This document shows, piece by piece, positions 15,849 through 20,676 of a stretch of DNA of 64,000 nt. Below the pieces are notes generated by a model. The model did no database searches, had not been told where the DNA came from, and saw only the letters and a program-made list of their open reading frames with translations. Every line of letters starts with the position of its first letter. Positions within the stretch are counted from its first letter, which is position 1. A program made the position numbers and the translations under genes. Where the stretch lies: the NCBI GenBank assembly GCA_007693785.1, contig RECY01000028.1, positions 186,001 through 250,000 on the forward strand. Reading direction: 5' to 3'. Origin of the DNA: Phycisphaerales bacterium. GTDB lineage: Bacteria; Planctomycetota; Phycisphaerae; Phycisphaerales; UBA1924.

Positions 15849-16481
15849 ATGCGATCCGAGATCCTCCAAGCCATCGTGACCACCGTCGCGATCATGAACC
15901 CCTTCGGCACCGCGCCGATCTTTCAGAACATGGTCTCCCCGCTCACGCCCGCGCGTCAGCGGGCGGCCGCCGTCAGCGTCTGCCTCTTCATCGCCGTCGT
16001 TCTCGTCGGCGTCGCGTTCGCCGGCGGGTTCGTCCTCAGCCTCTTCGGCATCTCGATCGACGCGTTCAAGGCCGCGGGCGGCGTCCTGATCGGGCTCATG
16101 GGCTTCGAGATGGTCCGCGGGAGCAAGAGCCAGGAGCACGAGCGCCTGGCCGACGAGGAAGAGATCCGCGAGCACGTGCTCGTCCCCTTCGCGATGCCGA
16201 TCGTGGTCGGGCCCGGCACGATCGCGACGATCGTCACGCTGAGCCTGAACGCGCGGGGCCCGGTGCCCTGGACCGCGCTCGCGGCCGTCGCCGCCGGCGT
16301 GCTCGTCACCGGCGCGTGCCTCTTCGGCATCCTGTTATTCGGGCGCTACCTCTCCAAGGGCGCGCAGCGGATCTTCACCCGCTTCCTCGGGCTGATCCTC
16401 ATGGCGATGGGCATGCAGTTCCTGCTCGCCGGGGCCGGCGCGGTGATGCAGGGCGCGGGGGCCCCGGGCATCGCGCCCTGA
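15849..16481 (+). CDS. marC: MarC/NAAT-family inner-membrane protein
   Basis: A 210-aa integral membrane protein with six predicted TM helices. The MarC signatures are MNPFGTAPIF at about residues 16-25, GFEMVRGSKS after TM3 and PFAMPIVVGPGTIAT at about 115-129. Despite its name the family is not a proven multiple-antibiotic-resistance factor; some archaeal relatives transport neutral amino acids, and the function of most members is unknown. It converges on the EVE-domain gene with only 4 bp between the stop codons. No ribosome-binding site is seen, in line with the -10 hexamer directly upstream. Confidence 0.92.
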   Translation: MRSEILQAIVTTVAIMNPFGTAPIFQNMVSPLTPARQRAAAVSVCLFIAVVLVGVAFAGGFVLSLFGISIDAFKAAGGVLIGLMGFEMVRGSKSQEHERLADEEEIREHVLVPFAMPIVVGPGTIATIVTLSLNARGPVPWTALAAVAAGVLVTGACLFGILLFGRYLSKGAQRIFTRFLGLILMAMGMQFLLAGAGAVMQGAGAPGIAP

Positions 16482-16485
16482 ACGC

Positions 16486-16917
16486 CTACAGCCCCGCCCA
16501 TTCGCGCAGCACCTTGTCCAATGCCGGCGGCACCGGCATCACGCTGAGTCGCGACTGCTTGACCAGCGTGAACTCTGCGAACCGCTTGTCGCCCTTGATC
16601 TTCGAGAGCGGGACGGGCTCTTTCGCCGCCTTCTTCGGCGCGAGATCGAACAGCACGAACTTGGGCTCGCCCGTGGAGGCGATCGTCTCGCCCGCGTGAT
16701 CGGGGTCTTCGTACGCGCCGCGCACGACCTTTGCGAGCCCGACGATGCGTTTCTCATCGCCGCTGTGATAGATGAACGCCTCGTCGCCTTCTTCGATGGC
16801 GCGCATGTGCTTCTGCGCGGGAGCGCTGGTGACGCCGTCCCAGTGGGTGCGTTGGTCGCGGACGAGATCGTCGTAGCTGTAGACGTCGGGCTCGGATTTC
16901 AGCAGCCAGGTGGTCAT
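16486..16917 (-). CDS. EVE-domain protein (thymocyte nuclear protein 1-like)
   Basis: 143 aa. The start MTTWLLKSEPDVYSYDDL is the textbook beginning of the EVE domain; DQRTHWDGVTSAPAQKHM, DEAFIYHSGDEK and GLAKVVRGAYED follow in the expected order. EVE domains are PUA-like folds that bind modified bases in DNA or RNA (known) and sometimes accompany restriction systems; no such partner is next to it. The start at 16917 was chosen by homology, although the frame stays open well upstream. TACACT sits 6 bp before it. A small soluble cytoplasmic protein. Confidence 0.93.
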   Translation of the reverse strand: MTTWLLKSEPDVYSYDDLVRDQRTHWDGVTSAPAQKHMRAIEEGDEAFIYHSGDEKRIVGLAKVVRGAYEDPDHAGETIASTGEPKFVLFDLAPKKAAKEPVPLSKIKGDKRFAEFTLVKQSRLSVMPVPPALDKVLREWAGL

Positions 16918-16923
16918 GCGGTG

Positions 16924-16929
16924 AGTGTA
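16924..16929 (-). promoter_or_regulatory. -10 hexamer TACACT, apparent leaderless start of the EVE gene
   Basis: Read on the minus strand, TACACT is followed by exactly 6 bp (CACCGC) and the ATG. No Shine-Dalgarno is present. It lies just downstream of the terminator of the cysteine-rich gene, so the EVE gene has its own start. Confidence 0.6.
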
Positions 16930-16945
16930 GTGGGGGCGTGCGCAC

Positions 16946-16976
16946 AAAAAACGCCCTCGGGCAAGGCCGAGGGCGT
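16946..16976 (-). terminator. Intrinsic terminator of the cysteine-rich gene
   Basis: On the minus strand a 10-bp perfect stem (ACGCCCTCGG with CCGAGGGCGT, 6-nt loop) is followed directly by a run of six T. This is one of the two cleanest intrinsic terminators of the window. It separates the cysteine-rich gene from the EVE gene. Confidence 0.85.
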
Positions 16977-17003
16977 TCGAGGTCGATCGAGAAATCGTGG
17001 GTC

Positions 17004-18152
17004 TTAGCCGGCGTTGGCGGGGGCCGAGTCGGCCTTGACGGTCTGGGCTGGGCAGACGTCGCTGCACGGCTTGTCGTCGCACGCCTTCTTGTCGCTGCAT
17101 TCGGTCTTCTTCGAGCAGCAGGCGCTGGTTTCCGCGACGGTCTGCACGTTCGCCGAGTTGCAGGAGCCCTTGGTCTGGCACGCGCCCTTGCGGGTGGTGC
17201 CGAGGGTCTTGAAGCTCGCGAGGGTGAAGCTCGCGGCCGGGGCGGCCTGGCTCCCGCACGGGGCGGCGCAGGTCGCGGCAGCAACGGGCGTCGCGGTCGA
17301 GCAGGTGGCCTTGGTCGAGCAGGCGGTGGTGGTCGTCGCGCAGGTCTTCGTGGCCGAGCAGGTGCTGGCCGCGACGGTCATCGCGGTGCTCTCGCAAGTG
17401 GTCTTGCACGCGGTCGCGCAGTCGCTGGCGAGGGCCACGGTCTGGGCCTCCGCCTTGCAGCAGCCGCTCTTGGTCTCGACGGCGGCGACGGTCATCGCGG
17501 CACCCTCGCAGGTCGTCGAGCAATCGGTTTTGGTCGAGCAGGTGTTCGCGGCAACGGTCTGCACCGCGGCGCTGCAGCACTCGGTCTTGGTCGAGCAATC
17601 GCTCTTAGTGGCGCAGTCGCTGGTCTGGCTGACGGGCGTGGCCTGAGCCTTCTCCGCAGCCTTCTCATCGGGGCAGCCGCCGCAGCAGTCGCCCTTGCCG
17701 TCGCCCACGCACCCGTCGGTGAGCTGCTTGCACTCGGTCGAAGCCACGGTCTGGACCGCGACGGCGTCGCCGCACTCGGTCTTCGCGCTGCAGCAGCCGC
17801 TCTCGGTCGCGGCAACAGTGGTCACCGTGGCCTGCTCGCAGTCGCTCTTGCCCTGGCAGCAGCCGCTCTTGGTCTCGGTCGCGGTCGCCATGAGCGAGCA
17901 GCAGGCCGAGCCGAGGTCGCAATCGCTCTTCTCGTCGTGCACGTGCTCGACGCCGCTGGCGCAGAGGGCGCAGTGATGCCCGTCGCTCGCGGTCTCGCTG
18001 ACGAGCGCGACGTCGCCGCCGGATCGCTTGCTCTCGCACGCGCCGAGGATGCACCCCGTCGAAACCAAGTTGAACCCACCAACCGCGACCGCGGTCAGCG
18101 CGATCACGCCGACCGCCGCTTTCACGGCAAACATTCCAGGACAACACCGCAT
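17004..18152 (-). CDS. Unrecognised cysteine-rich repeat protein with N-terminal signal/anchor
   Basis: 382 aa from the ATG at 18152, chosen for a strong Shine-Dalgarno (AGAAGGAGG about 8 bp upstream) and a signal-like N-terminus (MRCCPGMFAVKAAVGVIA). The hydrophobic stretch ends in STGC; a lipobox would want Leu/Val/Ile rather than Ser at -3, so lipidation is doubtful. The rest is low complexity, with about 46 Cys (12 %), many as CC pairs, and Thr, Ser, Lys, Asp and Ala. An imperfect unit recurs at least seven times: VxTVAA or MTVAA, a few residues, then SGCC, STC or SDC and often CSTKTxC (VTTVAATESGCC, VQTVAANTCS, MTVAAVETKSGCC, VQTVAETSACC). I do not recognise the family. Metal binding or a disulfide-linked surface structure is possible (inference). 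It has its own promoter and terminator. Confidence 0.8.
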   Translation of the reverse strand: MRCCPGMFAVKAAVGVIALTAVAVGGFNLVSTGCILGACESKRSGGDVALVSETASDGHHCALCASGVEHVHDEKSDCDLGSACCSLMATATETKSGCCQGKSDCEQATVTTVAATESGCCSAKTECGDAVAVQTVASTECKQLTDGCVGDGKGDCCGGCPDEKAAEKAQATPVSQTSDCATKSDCSTKTECCSAAVQTVAANTCSTKTDCSTTCEGAAMTVAAVETKSGCCKAEAQTVALASDCATACKTTCESTAMTVAASTCSATKTCATTTTACSTKATCSTATPVAAATCAAPCGSQAAPAASFTLASFKTLGTTRKGACQTKGSCNSANVQTVAETSACCSKKTECSDKKACDDKPCSDVCPAQTVKADSAPANAG

Positions 18153-18174
18153 CGCTCGGCCTCCTTCTATCGCG

Positions 18175-18191
18175 ACGGGCTTCACGCCCGT
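18175..18191 (-). promoter_or_regulatory. Leader hairpin just upstream of the cysteine-rich gene's ribosome-binding site
   Basis: ACGGGC-GTGAA-GCCCGT (6-bp stem, 5-nt loop) lies in the 5' leader about 10 bp before AGAAGGAGG. It could influence translation or stabilise the mRNA; it could also be a common GC-rich dispersed palindrome. Confidence 0.35.
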
Positions 18192-18318
18192 GATGGTTCT
18201 CAAACCCCCGTTGCCCGAAGCCCTTCGTACGAGAATCGCAGACGGATCATCGGCATCGACCACTTCACTGTACCGCCAGAGCCATAGATCGGCGGCTGCG
18301 GCACGCTGATTTCCTTCC

Positions 18319-18347
18319 AGAATCCCCGAAAACTGCATCGGTGTCAA
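18319..18347 (-). promoter_or_regulatory. Promoter of the cysteine-rich gene (TTGACA-N17-GATTCT)
   Basis: A perfect -35 TTGACA (complement of 18342-18347) is 17 bp from a modest -10 GATTCT (complement of 18319-18324). Transcription would start near 18312, giving a leader of about 160 nt. Confidence 0.55.
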
Positions 18348-18618
18348 GGCTGTTGCAACAGATACTAGAGATTGGACGATTCGGCTCGGTGGATATCACC
18401 CTGTTTAGGCGGCTTGAGGACCTTTGATGTCAATGTGGGAGAGCCGCGCGGCTTGGGTGCTTTGTGTGGGGACCGAGTCGGATGGGGTGGGTGTGTGTCG
18501 TTTTCGGGCTGCGGTGGAGTGAAGGGTTCGGGCGGTCGATACCGACGCGGGGCCCGGCCGACGGATCGGCCTGCGGGCGTTCGGGCGGGGCATCGGTGCA
18601 GACGGAGGTGGCGCAGGT

Positions 18619-20676
18619 ATGGATTCCAACCCGCACGATCGGCCCGCAACGGACCCGGCACACCCGGCCGACCCGGACCCCGTCGCCCACGCTGCGGAGG
18701 CGGAGGCCGGCGACCGCCTGCTGGACATGATCGCGGACGTGGAGCAGCAGCTCGCGAGCCTGAAGCAGGTCCACGCGCAGCGTCGCGAGACGGAGCTGAC
18801 GCTGACCGAGCGCGAGGCCGACCTCGCCAAGCGCGAGCAGGACTTGGTTTTCCGGTTCGACCAGATCCAGGCCGAGAAGGAGACCCTGGACGCGGCCCGC
18901 GGGGAGCTGGAGCGCGGACGGTCGGAGATCCAGACGGCTCTGGCGGAGCTCGAAGACCGGCGTCAGACGCAGGCCGAGCGCGAGCGGATGATCCGCGAAG
19001 ACAGCGAGCAGCGGATCGAATTGCTGAGCCAGCGCGAGGAAGAGATCGCCCGCGGCGCGGAGCTGGTCCGCCAGAGCCGCGACGAGATCGACCGACTCCG
19101 CGACGAACTGGCGGCCCAGCAAACGGCGCTCGACGAGCGTGCGGCGGTCTTCGAGGCGGGCGAGCAGGAATTGCGGGCGAAGCTGGAAGGGTTCAGCCAA
19201 CGGATCATCGAAGCCGAGCAGGCGCGGGAGGCGTTGGAGGTCGCGCTGGGCGAGCGTGAAGAGGCGCTGTCGTCGATGGCGTCGGAGCTTGGGGAAGCGC
19301 GGGCGTCGACCGCGGGTTCGGCGGAAGCCGAGGCCCGTCTGGAGGCCGCCGAAGCGGAGATCGCCGCTCAGCGTCAGGAGATCACGCGTCTTGAGGCCTC
19401 GCTTGCCGAGCGTGCGTCGCTGATCGAGGAGCTCCGCGAGCAGCAGGCCGACGCGGGCGTCGCCGGGCAGCGGATCCAGACGCTCGAGGCGCAGCTCTCG
19501 GCGGCGGTCGATGCGCGTGAAGCGCTCGAGGAGCGCCTGCGCGGGCTGGAGCGCGAGCTGGAGGCGGTGCAAGGCGAGGCCCGCGAGCTCGTCGAGCGTC
19601 ACCGGGCCGAGCACGGCAAGCGTTCGGTCGAGATCGAGCGTGAGCTGAAAGCGGCGAGGTCGGCGTGCGACGCGTTGCAGCGCGAGCTCGACGCGGCTCG
19701 GGCCGAGAAGACGGACCTGGAAAACGACGTTCTCGGCTTGACGGCCGAGGTCACCCAGCTCCGCGAGCGCCCCGCGGGGCGGAGCGATCCGTTCATCGCG
19801 AGTCGTCGTGCGCGCCTCCACGCCGTGCGCCAGGCGCTGCGGGCGCAGTCGGCGAAGCTGCAGAAAGCGAACCAGGCGCTGCGGAAGCGGTATCAGCAGG
19901 CCGAGCAGGTGCTGGCGCAGCGCGGGGAGCTGATCGTGGCGCGGGACGCGCTGGCGGCGGCGCAGTCCAAGGCGGACACGCAGAGCCGGGCCGGGCGGAT
20001 GTTCGGCGGGATGGCCCTGTTCCTGCTTGTGCTGACGCTGGTGGGTTCGCTGTCGTGGGTGACGGCGTTGCAGGTGGTGCCCGGGCGGTACGCCGCGACC
20101 GCGGTCATCGCCGCCCAGTCCCGGAACCGGGACCTGACCCCGGAGGAGGCGCAGCAGTGGGTCGCGTTCCATCAGGAAACGCTGACCGACGCGCGGTTCC
20201 TGGAGATGGCCTCCGAGCGCATGCGCCGGCGGGGGATCACCTCGATGGGCAGCGCCCCGGCGCTCCGCGAGCGGATGAACAGCGACACGGACGCCTTCAG
20301 CAGCGAGCCGGGCACGCTCACGATCGAGCTGCGCGGGCGCGGCGGGCAACGCACCGCGCGGGAGCTTGAAACCTTGGTCGCCTCGCTGATCGCCCACAGC
20401 AACGCCAGCCGACTCCGGCGCGCCGACGCCGCGATGACCGTCCTCCGAAGCCCGCCCTCCGGGGCCGATCGCCCGATCGGGTACGAGCACTACGCGGTCG
20501 CCGGCTCCGGGCTCGGCGTCGCGGTGCTGCTCAGCGGGTTCCTCGGCTTCGGCATCTGGCGCAAGCTCTCCAGCGTCAAGAGCACGTTCGAGCAGCAGGC
20601 GCAGGTCGATGCCGCGCTCGAAGAGGCGCGGTGGGGCCTGCCGGAAGACCTCAGCAGCGAACGGCTGGAAGGCTGA
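18619..20676 (+). CDS. Coiled-coil protein with C-terminal two-TM, Wzz-like periplasmic module
   Basis: 685 aa. Residues about 30-440 are one long coiled coil, very rich in Glu, Arg, Gln and Ala, with heptads such as READLAKREQDL and REEEIARGAELVRQ. TM1 lies near 460-485 (MFGGMALFLLVLTLVG), TM2 near 624-648, and the 140 residues between should be periplasmic. A topology of TM1, a short periplasmic domain and TM2, with YAATAVIAAQSR right after TM1, recalls chain-length determinant (Wzz) domains, but here a cytosolic coiled coil replaces the kinase. The GGAGG-type ribosome site is about 11 bp from the ATG. It is monocistronic and ends at a hairpin shared with the anti-sigma gene. A role in polysaccharide chain control or an envelope scaffold is inference only. 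Confidence 0.75.
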   Translation: MDSNPHDRPATDPAHPADPDPVAHAAEAEAGDRLLDMIADVEQQLASLKQVHAQRRETELTLTEREADLAKREQDLVFRFDQIQAEKETLDAARGELERGRSEIQTALAELEDRRQTQAERERMIREDSEQRIELLSQREEEIARGAELVRQSRDEIDRLRDELAAQQTALDERAAVFEAGEQELRAKLEGFSQRIIEAEQAREALEVALGEREEALSSMASELGEARASTAGSAEAEARLEAAEAEIAAQRQEITRLEASLAERASLIEELREQQADAGVAGQRIQTLEAQLSAAVDAREALEERLRGLERELEAVQGEARELVERHRAEHGKRSVEIERELKAARSACDALQRELDAARAEKTDLENDVLGLTAEVTQLRERPAGRSDPFIASRRARLHAVRQALRAQSAKLQKANQALRKRYQQAEQVLAQRGELIVARDALAAAQSKADTQSRAGRMFGGMALFLLVLTLVGSLSWVTALQVVPGRYAATAVIAAQSRNRDLTPEEAQQWVAFHQETLTDARFLEMASERMRRRGITSMGSAPALRERMNSDTDAFSSEPGTLTIELRGRGGQRTARELETLVASLIAHSNASRLRRADAAMTVLRSPPSGADRPIGYEHYAVAGSGLGVAVLLSGFLGFGIWRKLSSVKSTFEQQAQVDAALEEARWGLPEDLSSERLEG

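Follow-up and report, generated by a model that had tools for sequence, protein, structure and literature searches.

The window analysed here, a 64,000-nucleotide stretch of a Phycisphaerales genome (assembly GCA_007693785.1, contig RECY01000028.1), carries on its reverse strand a gene for a cysteine-rich, membrane-anchored protein (positions 17004–18152; 382 residues, ATG start, stop codon at 17006–17004). This gene, hereafter the Cys gene, belongs to a family with a conserved N-terminal anchor and a variable, cysteine-rich tail. Going by its sequence, the product may be a membrane-tethered extracytoplasmic polythiol that buffers thiophilic metals, a reading which we favour tentatively and to which we give a little less than an even chance.

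The protein is built from two parts. Residues 1–39 (18036–18152, reverse strand) form the conserved anchor module, which comprises a basic N-terminus, a helix (residues 8–32) and the sequence GGFNLVSTGC-ILGAC, including C34 and C39. Residues 40–382 (17007–18035, reverse strand) form a low-complexity tail rich in Cys as well as in Ala, Thr and Ser, which is predicted to be extracytoplasmic. An earlier note, made from the letters of the window, had described about 12% Cys over 380 residues and about seven TVA repeats, and both descriptions hold. The protein contains 46 Cys (12.0%), compared with a median of 0.60% in 45 other open reading frames (ORFs) picked across the window by a rule on G+C content at third codon positions, the Cys gene itself not being among the picks. 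TVA stands at seven unit heads (VTTVAA, VQTVAS, VQTVAA, MTVAA, QTVAL, MTVAAS, and VQTVAE), and these units alternate with CC, SDC, and CSTKTxC segments. Compared with shuffled sequences, Cys–Cys autocorrelation in the tail shows peaks at lags 6 and 21 (z = 3.1 and 3.7, respectively). The tail has no CxC and two CxxC; a CCGGC motif at residues 156–160 (17673–17687, reverse strand) belongs to the CCGxC motifs that recur across the family. The proposed signal or membrane anchor proved to be a single N-terminal hydrophobic helix (Kyte–Doolittle (KD) hydropathy over 19 residues of 2.08). AlphaFold2, run with ten sequences, modelled helix 8–32 only, with a mean predicted local distance difference test score of 37.7 and no confident structure for the tail. 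As the note had supposed, the protein has no named family: we found no match in Pfam or NCBIfam at E ≤ 10 and none in the PDB at E ≤ 1.

The frame looks coding, because its G+C content by codon position is 0.524/0.644/0.921 and 44 of its 46 Cys codons are TGC. We found no close relative of the window gene for a direct selection test, so the constraint is that measured in its relatives. In ten close pairs of these, the ratio of nonsynonymous to synonymous substitution rates (dN/dS) over the whole coding sequence was 0.08–0.36, which corresponds to purifying selection, and Cys positions were retained, by eye, in the printed pair alignments. The relatives are translated and constrained, and the codon pattern of the window gene and the selection in its relatives both speak for a coding frame.

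The family was delineated by profile searches. Used alone, the window protein matched its own genome and 7 of 99 others of its taxonomic family (E-values of 8.7e-8 to 5.7e-4). The N-termini of these first matches align through the start, the hydrophobic helix, and a membrane exit resembling GGYN..TTGC-xLG-xC. The family as a whole aligns only in this anchor (GYN..TTGCPLGxC). The anchor-region profile A2 gave matches in 71 of the 163 genomes of the taxonomic family, and the 68-row profile A3 in 69 of the 301 genomes of the order, all inside the same family, adding 11 genomes. The A2 match in genome G154 was spurious, as were second matches in G125 (A2) and G106 (A3). The window protein scores E = 6.9e-18 against A3, by construction since it is a row of that profile. 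Two very short members (L067 and L078, 51–52 residues) were excluded from the A3 alignment and retained in the protein set. Three candidates were rejected as members: L108 (480 residues, 0.4% Cys, HlyD-like by eye), L109 (its frame contains a stop), and L159 (1.4% Cys). With these removed beforehand, the set comprises 81 proteins, from 69 and 11 loci plus the window; three of them (L068, L079, and L154) are cut by contig ends. A further member, L194, and a tail fragment at the edge of stretch L210 were found later and lie outside the set. Including both, the family gene is present in at least 83 of the 163 genomes and 47 of the 74 genera of its taxonomic family.

A sample of 392 genomes of the phylum yielded matches in 15, of which 10 belong to the same family and 5 lie outside it. 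The profile was built from the anchor, and not from the repeat as the earlier note had recommended for a search across the Planctomycetota. All five outside matches (L204–L208) are short anchors with Cys-rich tails, and may be either true homologues or look-alikes. Repeating the phylum search with profile A6 added three weak matches (G391, G421, and G642); A6 contains L204–L206 and is hence circular for those three. Of the suggestion that this is a phylum-specific surface protein, the distribution part fits so far. Outside the phylum, coverage consisted of two named-genome scans and a plasmid search. The window protein found no relative among the named genomes, and the plasmid search gave no match to the family. 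The anchor alignment A5 found nine loci in named genomes, seven labelled Phycisphaerales, Phycisphaeraceae or Phycisphaerae, one Planctomycetota, and one 'Leptolyngbya sp. PLA1'; chromosome CP054186.1 is one of these nine. The coding sequence under the Leptolyngbya title (L144, QWIH01000020.1) is identical to that of L058, from a genome of the planctomycete family, and its organism label therefore looks wrong.

Forty-eight members, including the window protein, were scanned against Pfam at E ≤ 0.1, and no Pfam family was matched by more than one of them; NCBIfam gave one marginal match only. Titles and opening lines of open-licence papers on Cys-rich proteins of Phycisphaerales or Phycisphaerae contain no account of the family, and neither do those of the listed open-licence papers on YTV proteins, TRASH/YHS domains, metallothioneins, and Csp.

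The 81 proteins range from 51 to 669 residues (median 162), with tails of about 12 to more than 600 residues. C39 is invariant across the 68 rows of the anchor alignment, and at least 90% of rows have C34. A hydrophobic 19-residue segment (KD ≥ 1.6) occurs in 79/81 anchors, compared with 2/81 tails. In 77/81 proteins, positive charge is greater at the N-terminus than at residues 33–50, from which the tail should face the periplasm. A loose PROSITE-type lipobox pattern fits 40/81 members and both C34 and C39 of the window protein. The strict form [LVI][ASTVI][GAS]C fits 5/81 and not the window protein, and the full rule (Cys at 15–35, Lys or Arg in the first seven residues) 19/81. The anchor may thus stay uncleaved as a helix, or may serve some members as a lipoprotein signal.

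Tail boundaries were set by pattern in 53 proteins and fixed at residue 40 in the other 28. Pooled tails contain 20% Ala, 9.8% Cys, 0.8% aromatic residues, and 0.8% His, and the proteins are acidic, with a median net charge of –9. The TVA unit, which the earlier note had taken as the mark of the protein, does not define the family, as TVA occurs in only 30/81 tails; the conserved part is the anchor, which the note had not singled out. At the DNA level, short tandem repeats can be seen. The expansion and contraction of repeats that the note had suggested looking for was observed in L098 and L103, one of which has two more copies of a seven-residue Cys repeat than the other. At the short extreme, L067 and L078 (genus g73) consist of the anchor and a tail of about 12 residues, with no EVE or coil gene (the usual neighbours, described below) nearby, while their congener L081 encodes a 98-residue protein at the EVE/coil slot. 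A second motif, PxMMPxAF or PVVMPAMF, was seen by eye between the Cys blocks of L062, L087, L097, L102, L105, L152, L155, and others; the strict pattern occurs four times in 3/81 tails, with none expected. These seven named loci have long tails, and no coil gene was found in the stretch examined.

The tail cysteines follow a distinct spacing. Counts over 71 non-redundant tails, observed versus expected, showed enrichment of CC (180 vs 110.6, z = 7.1), CxxxC (142 vs 108.7, z = 3.5), Cx5C (179 vs 106.6, z = 7.9), and Cx6C (143 vs 106.2, z = 3.8). Cys pairs also rise at lags 18–22 (z = 2.8–6.0). As a control we used YTV proteins, cysteine-rich planctomycete wall proteins (12 loci fetched, 10 proteins extracted, some identical). 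These showed a peak at lag 5, no CC excess, and 6–10% aromatic residues. At the level of sequence, the enriched spacings and the composition do separate the family from the YTV wall proteins. The number of Cys per protein ranges from 4 to 53 (median 16) and is even in only 34/81, which argues that the cysteines are not simply paired within the chain.

Two members provide a lead towards metals. L075 and L158 each contain three tandem YHS/TRASH-like modules (NxxCP...G..V.FC...C) inside the Cys-rich tail. The whole L158 protein scores above the Pfam YHS cut-off (31.8 bits vs 30.3; E = 1.5e-7), while single modules and the whole of L075 (17 bits) fall below it. TRASH/YHS domains have been described as binding transition metals through Cys, for example in a probable Cu sensor (PMC4626032). 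The motif CP[VIM]TG, reminiscent of the first YHS knuckle, was found in 8/81 tails from 6 genera (0.0 expected), and CCGxC occurs 14 times, in 14/81 tails from 9 genera (0.9 expected), five of the 14 in genus g23. Both motifs may be remnants of the two YHS knuckles.

A second lead is co-occurrence with heavy-metal P-type ATPases. Frames of 780–920 residues with a YHS domain were found in 34 genomes, and the four that were checked are all P-type ATPases with YHS and heavy-metal-binding domains. Two of these, cut at the stretch end, pass the NCBIfam heavy-metal model and fall below its copper cut-off. The Cys gene is present in 25/34 genomes with such a frame vs 58/129 without (one-sided p = 0.0025). 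Omitting the partial YHS matches in G132 and G133 gave 23/32 vs 60/131 (p = 0.007), and omitting the large genus g59 gave 25/27 vs 58/115 (p = 2e-5). Counted by genus, the values are 17/19 vs 30/55 (p = 0.005). Other YHS genes showed no link to the Cys gene (30/62 vs 53/101, p = 0.75). At both L248 and L255, an amino-acid permease gene adjoins the frame of a P-type ATPase that has YHS and heavy-metal-binding domains at its N-terminus.

Several of the signals flanking the window gene could be verified. A Shine–Dalgarno sequence, AGGAGG, was read at 18160–18165 and an intrinsic terminator with a 12-bp stem and a T run lies at 16943–16978 (both reverse strand; terminator z = –3.38 vs shuffles), so that the strong Shine–Dalgarno motif and clean terminator of the earlier note stand. 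Shine–Dalgarno-like motifs occur in 71/81 upstream regions (window and 80 relatives) vs 7.9 in shuffles. The strong promoter claimed in the same note fared less well: TTGACA is present upstream of the gene, yet a scan of 16000–19000 returned no promoter-like sites, and the mean best sigma-70 score over the 81 upstream regions was no better than in shuffles (5.52 vs 5.85). We therefore rejected a sigma-70 promoter. The supposed leader hairpin was also dropped, as the region 18260–18140 (reverse strand) folds at chance (z = –0.76; 43/200 shuffles equally stable). Rfam gave no match over 16800–18700.

The Cys gene mostly occupies one chromosomal slot. Downstream of it in the window lies an EVE-domain gene (PF01878, Pfam E = 5.1e-38; 16486–16917, reverse strand), and upstream a divergent gene for a coiled-coil protein without a Pfam match, the coil gene (18619–20676, forward strand). 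The EVE gene lies downstream on the same strand at 53 of the 69 true loci and 7 of the 11 further loci, and the divergent coil gene upstream at 51 and 5, respectively. Together, the loci of the 80 relatives, several of which are cut by contig ends, include the EVE gene in 60, the coil gene in 56, both in 43, and at least one in 73; at 7/80, neither was found within the stretch examined. Genes for an extracytoplasmic function (ECF) sigma factor and a putative anti-sigma factor lie beyond the coil gene at 45 and 46 of the 69 loci. About 1 kb separates the Cys gene from the EVE gene at many loci.

The coil gene itself was found in 146 of the 163 family genomes. We took 48 stretches upstream of it from part of the genomes without an anchor match, some of them incomplete, and 25 of these contain the EVE gene, divergent from the coil gene. 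An unfiltered hmmsearch of all their ORFs of at least 30 residues recovered one missed member, L194 (E = 1.5e-10). In 24 stretches (leaving out L210, with the tail of a member at its edge), the EVE and coil genes are no more than about 3.5 kb apart and no Cys gene was detected. Another gene lies between the two in some of these; in L169, L175, L166, L202, and L217, this is an ORF of about 280–310 residues. This pattern suggests that the Cys gene comes and goes at the EVE/coil slot, and its neighbours do not depend on it. Deducing function from the coil, sigma, and EVE genes was rejected as weak, since the coil gene is so widespread and is paired with the EVE gene even where no Cys gene was found.

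The coil protein has two membrane segments, with a short domain between them which, by eye, recalls Wzz-like chain-length proteins. A two-block motif, GTTCAG-N16-[CT]CGATA, reads towards the coil gene (L039–L107 and L165–L217; for example L040, L044, L165, and L203). In a looser form it occurs in 35/81 upstream regions, and in its strict form in 8/48 of the other coil-gene stretches vs 0.05 in shuffles, one of them (L194) with a Cys gene. The motif may be an ECF-type promoter, which it resembles. It was not found in the window, and its orientation towards the coil gene, together with its presence upstream of that gene in the other stretches, led us to reject it as a control motif of the Cys gene.

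We compared the family with known Cys-rich systems. Bacterial metallothioneins (SmtA/BmtA and MymT) are cytosolic, Cys-rich, low-complexity proteins with almost no aromatic residues. The family shares this composition. It differs in the lack of any Pfam or NCBIfam match at E ≤ 10 for the window protein, in its greater length, in the near absence of CxC, and in its membrane anchor and predicted place outside the cytoplasm. Chlamydial OmcA and OmcB are cysteine-rich outer-membrane proteins of the Planctomycetes–Verrucomicrobia–Chlamydiae superphylum, and thus are likewise Cys-rich envelope proteins of that superphylum; the likeness is drawn from their general description only. The YTV proteins (PF07639) share a planctomycete origin, Cys-rich repeats, an extracytoplasmic location, and depletion of CxC and CxxC. 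They differ in their aromatic content and lag-5 Cys period, while the present family has an N-terminal anchor, an acidic Ala-rich tail, and enrichment at lags 1, 4, 6, and 7. The window protein has no YTV domain match (Pfam, E ≤ 10). A search of 149 phylum genomes gave YTV matches in nine, and none in the four genomes shown from the family's own taxonomic family, the window genome included. Planctomycete cell-wall preparations have yielded YTV proteins, which are reported from Planctomycetales only (PMC8567305; see also PMC10632474). With YHS/TRASH (PF04945), the family shares the modules in the L075 and L158 tails and the CPxTG and CCGxC motifs that resemble the two knuckles. The window protein itself has no YHS match, and only its CCGGC recalls the second knuckle. 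Csp1 and Csp3 (DUF326, PF03860) also have many Cys and enriched CxxxC, while the window protein has no PF03860 match. Csp is described as a folded four-helix bundle, and in Csp3 single helices hold Cu(I) via CxxxC spacing (PMC5171941); the low confidence of our model would still allow such a fold.

These observations can be combined into a tentative mechanism. One helix, with its N-terminus inside and C-terminus outside and a conserved Cx4C pair at the membrane exit, would display a probably disordered, acidic tail with regularly spaced Cys clusters in the periplasm. The tail would most likely buffer thiophilic metal ions near the inner membrane, Cu(I) being the first candidate and Zn, Cd or Hg further ones. 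Gaining and losing repeat units would adjust its capacity, and this would explain why the tail changes fast while the anchor is kept. The YHS/TRASH modules in two relatives and the co-occurrence with heavy-metal P-type ATPases favour metal handling. The CP[VIM]TG and CCGxC motifs, the enriched CxxxC spacing known from Csp3, and the abundance of Cys alongside few aromatic residues also count for it. The analysis computed the coding gene, the single-helix anchor, its orientation by charge, the family, the locus, the selection, the Cys spacing, and the YHS/TRASH-like modules; from these we infer export of the tail, free thiols, metal binding, the identity of the metal, and a storage role. For this and the three competing explanations below, the step from anatomy to function is one of interpretation.

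A number of results weigh against metal buffering. CxC is nearly absent from the tails (3 vs 111.0, z = –11.7) and CxxC is depleted (40 vs 110.2, z = –8.0). Clusters of CxC and CxxC are the hallmark spacing of metallothioneins. Both spacings are also depleted in the YTV control (CxC 18 vs 59, z = –6.0; CxxC 23 vs 59, z = –5.6), and their avoidance therefore separates the family from metallothioneins and not from YTV wall proteins. Cys/His neighbours are not enriched (40 vs 44.1), with His at the low level given above. L075 was the only YHS match at E ≤ 0.1 among 48 members scanned, and a genome-wide YHS search at E ≤ 0.001 gave no match in G038, the genome that holds L158, whose modules thus match only weakly one at a time. 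No YHS match was obtained in the window genome, which is not among the ATPase carriers either. The ATPase association was framed post hoc, and its p-values ignore the relatedness of the genomes. No metal gene was recognised among the conserved neighbours, nor among ten ORFs chosen at L204–L206, three of the five loci outside the family. The idea of Csp as a replacement was set aside because Csp is too rare, with DUF326/Csp in 6 of 163 genomes and only one of these with the Cys gene. Lastly, thiols in the periplasm would tend to oxidise.

A second explanation, which we consider rather unlikely and which is the strongest competitor, is that the tails are disulfide-linked envelope material. Interchain disulfides between tails, or to other envelope proteins, would connect the inner membrane with a protein network in the periplasm or wall, and the family would be an analogue of YTV proteins where these were not found. 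The scarcity of CxC and CxxC common to both families favours cross-linking or is at least compatible with it, the YTV precedent comes from cell-wall preparations (PMC8567305), YTV was not found in the four own-family genomes shown, and the mostly odd Cys counts speak against simple intrachain pairing. On the other side, there is no YTV match, and the acidic charge, the Ala-rich tails, the scarcity of aromatic residues, and the spacing peaks all differ from those of YTV proteins. A gene undetected in about half of the family genomes, and reduced to an anchor and about 12 residues in L067 and L078, would be ill-suited to a main structural protein, and cross-linking leaves the YHS-like modules unexplained.

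It is improbable, in our estimate, that the protein is a sacrificial or redox thiol buffer of the periplasm. In that case it would bind no particular metal and have no structural function; its Cys clusters would cushion the cell against oxidants, nitrosative species or misfolding stress, and a DsbD-like reductase would regenerate them. The dense CC pairs, the indifference to tail sequence and length, and the ECF sigma and putative anti-sigma genes beyond the coil gene would all suit such a buffer. The neighbourhood says little, though, since the coil gene occurs whether or not a genome has the Cys gene, and is paired with the EVE gene at sites where no Cys gene was found. The neighbours scanned included no recognisable reductase. 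CxxC, the usual thiol–disulfide exchange motif, is depleted. Least probable, we think, is that the tail has no fixed role and is slippage-prone, low-complexity sequence tolerated behind a selected anchor, which might for example bind a partner via Cx4C. That the anchor is the part that aligns, that tails can shrink to about 12 residues, and that small tandem repeats are visible in the DNA would suit such tolerance. Purifying selection across the whole coding sequence in the ten close pairs, with Cys positions kept by eye, and the strict Cys spacing over 71 non-redundant tails argue against this reading.

Returning to metal buffering, a more specific form of it is conceivable, although the chances are clearly against it. 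The proteins may be planctomycete-specific 'polythiol brushes', in which an anchor module and an elastic array of Cys clusters form a metal store in the periplasm, from which a P-type ATPase is fed or by which it is relieved. They would follow their own spacing code, with CC, CxxxC, and Cx5C favoured and CxC and CxxC avoided, and would be encoded mostly at one chromosomal slot. If this is true, the brushes would be neither metallothionein nor Csp, would have been converted to a chain of TRASH modules in some lineages, and would be a third way of storing metals by means of thiols, one located outside the cytoplasm.

Cys-rich envelope proteins turn up repeatedly in planctomycetes and are poorly explained. 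The present work defines one such family in a lineage where no YTV was found. It supplies a profile, a preferred locus, sites for comparison that appear to be empty, and a distinctive Cys spacing, which makes metal storage versus envelope cross-linking directly testable. It also provides a clear case in which anchor and thiol spacing are kept while the sequence of the tail turns over.

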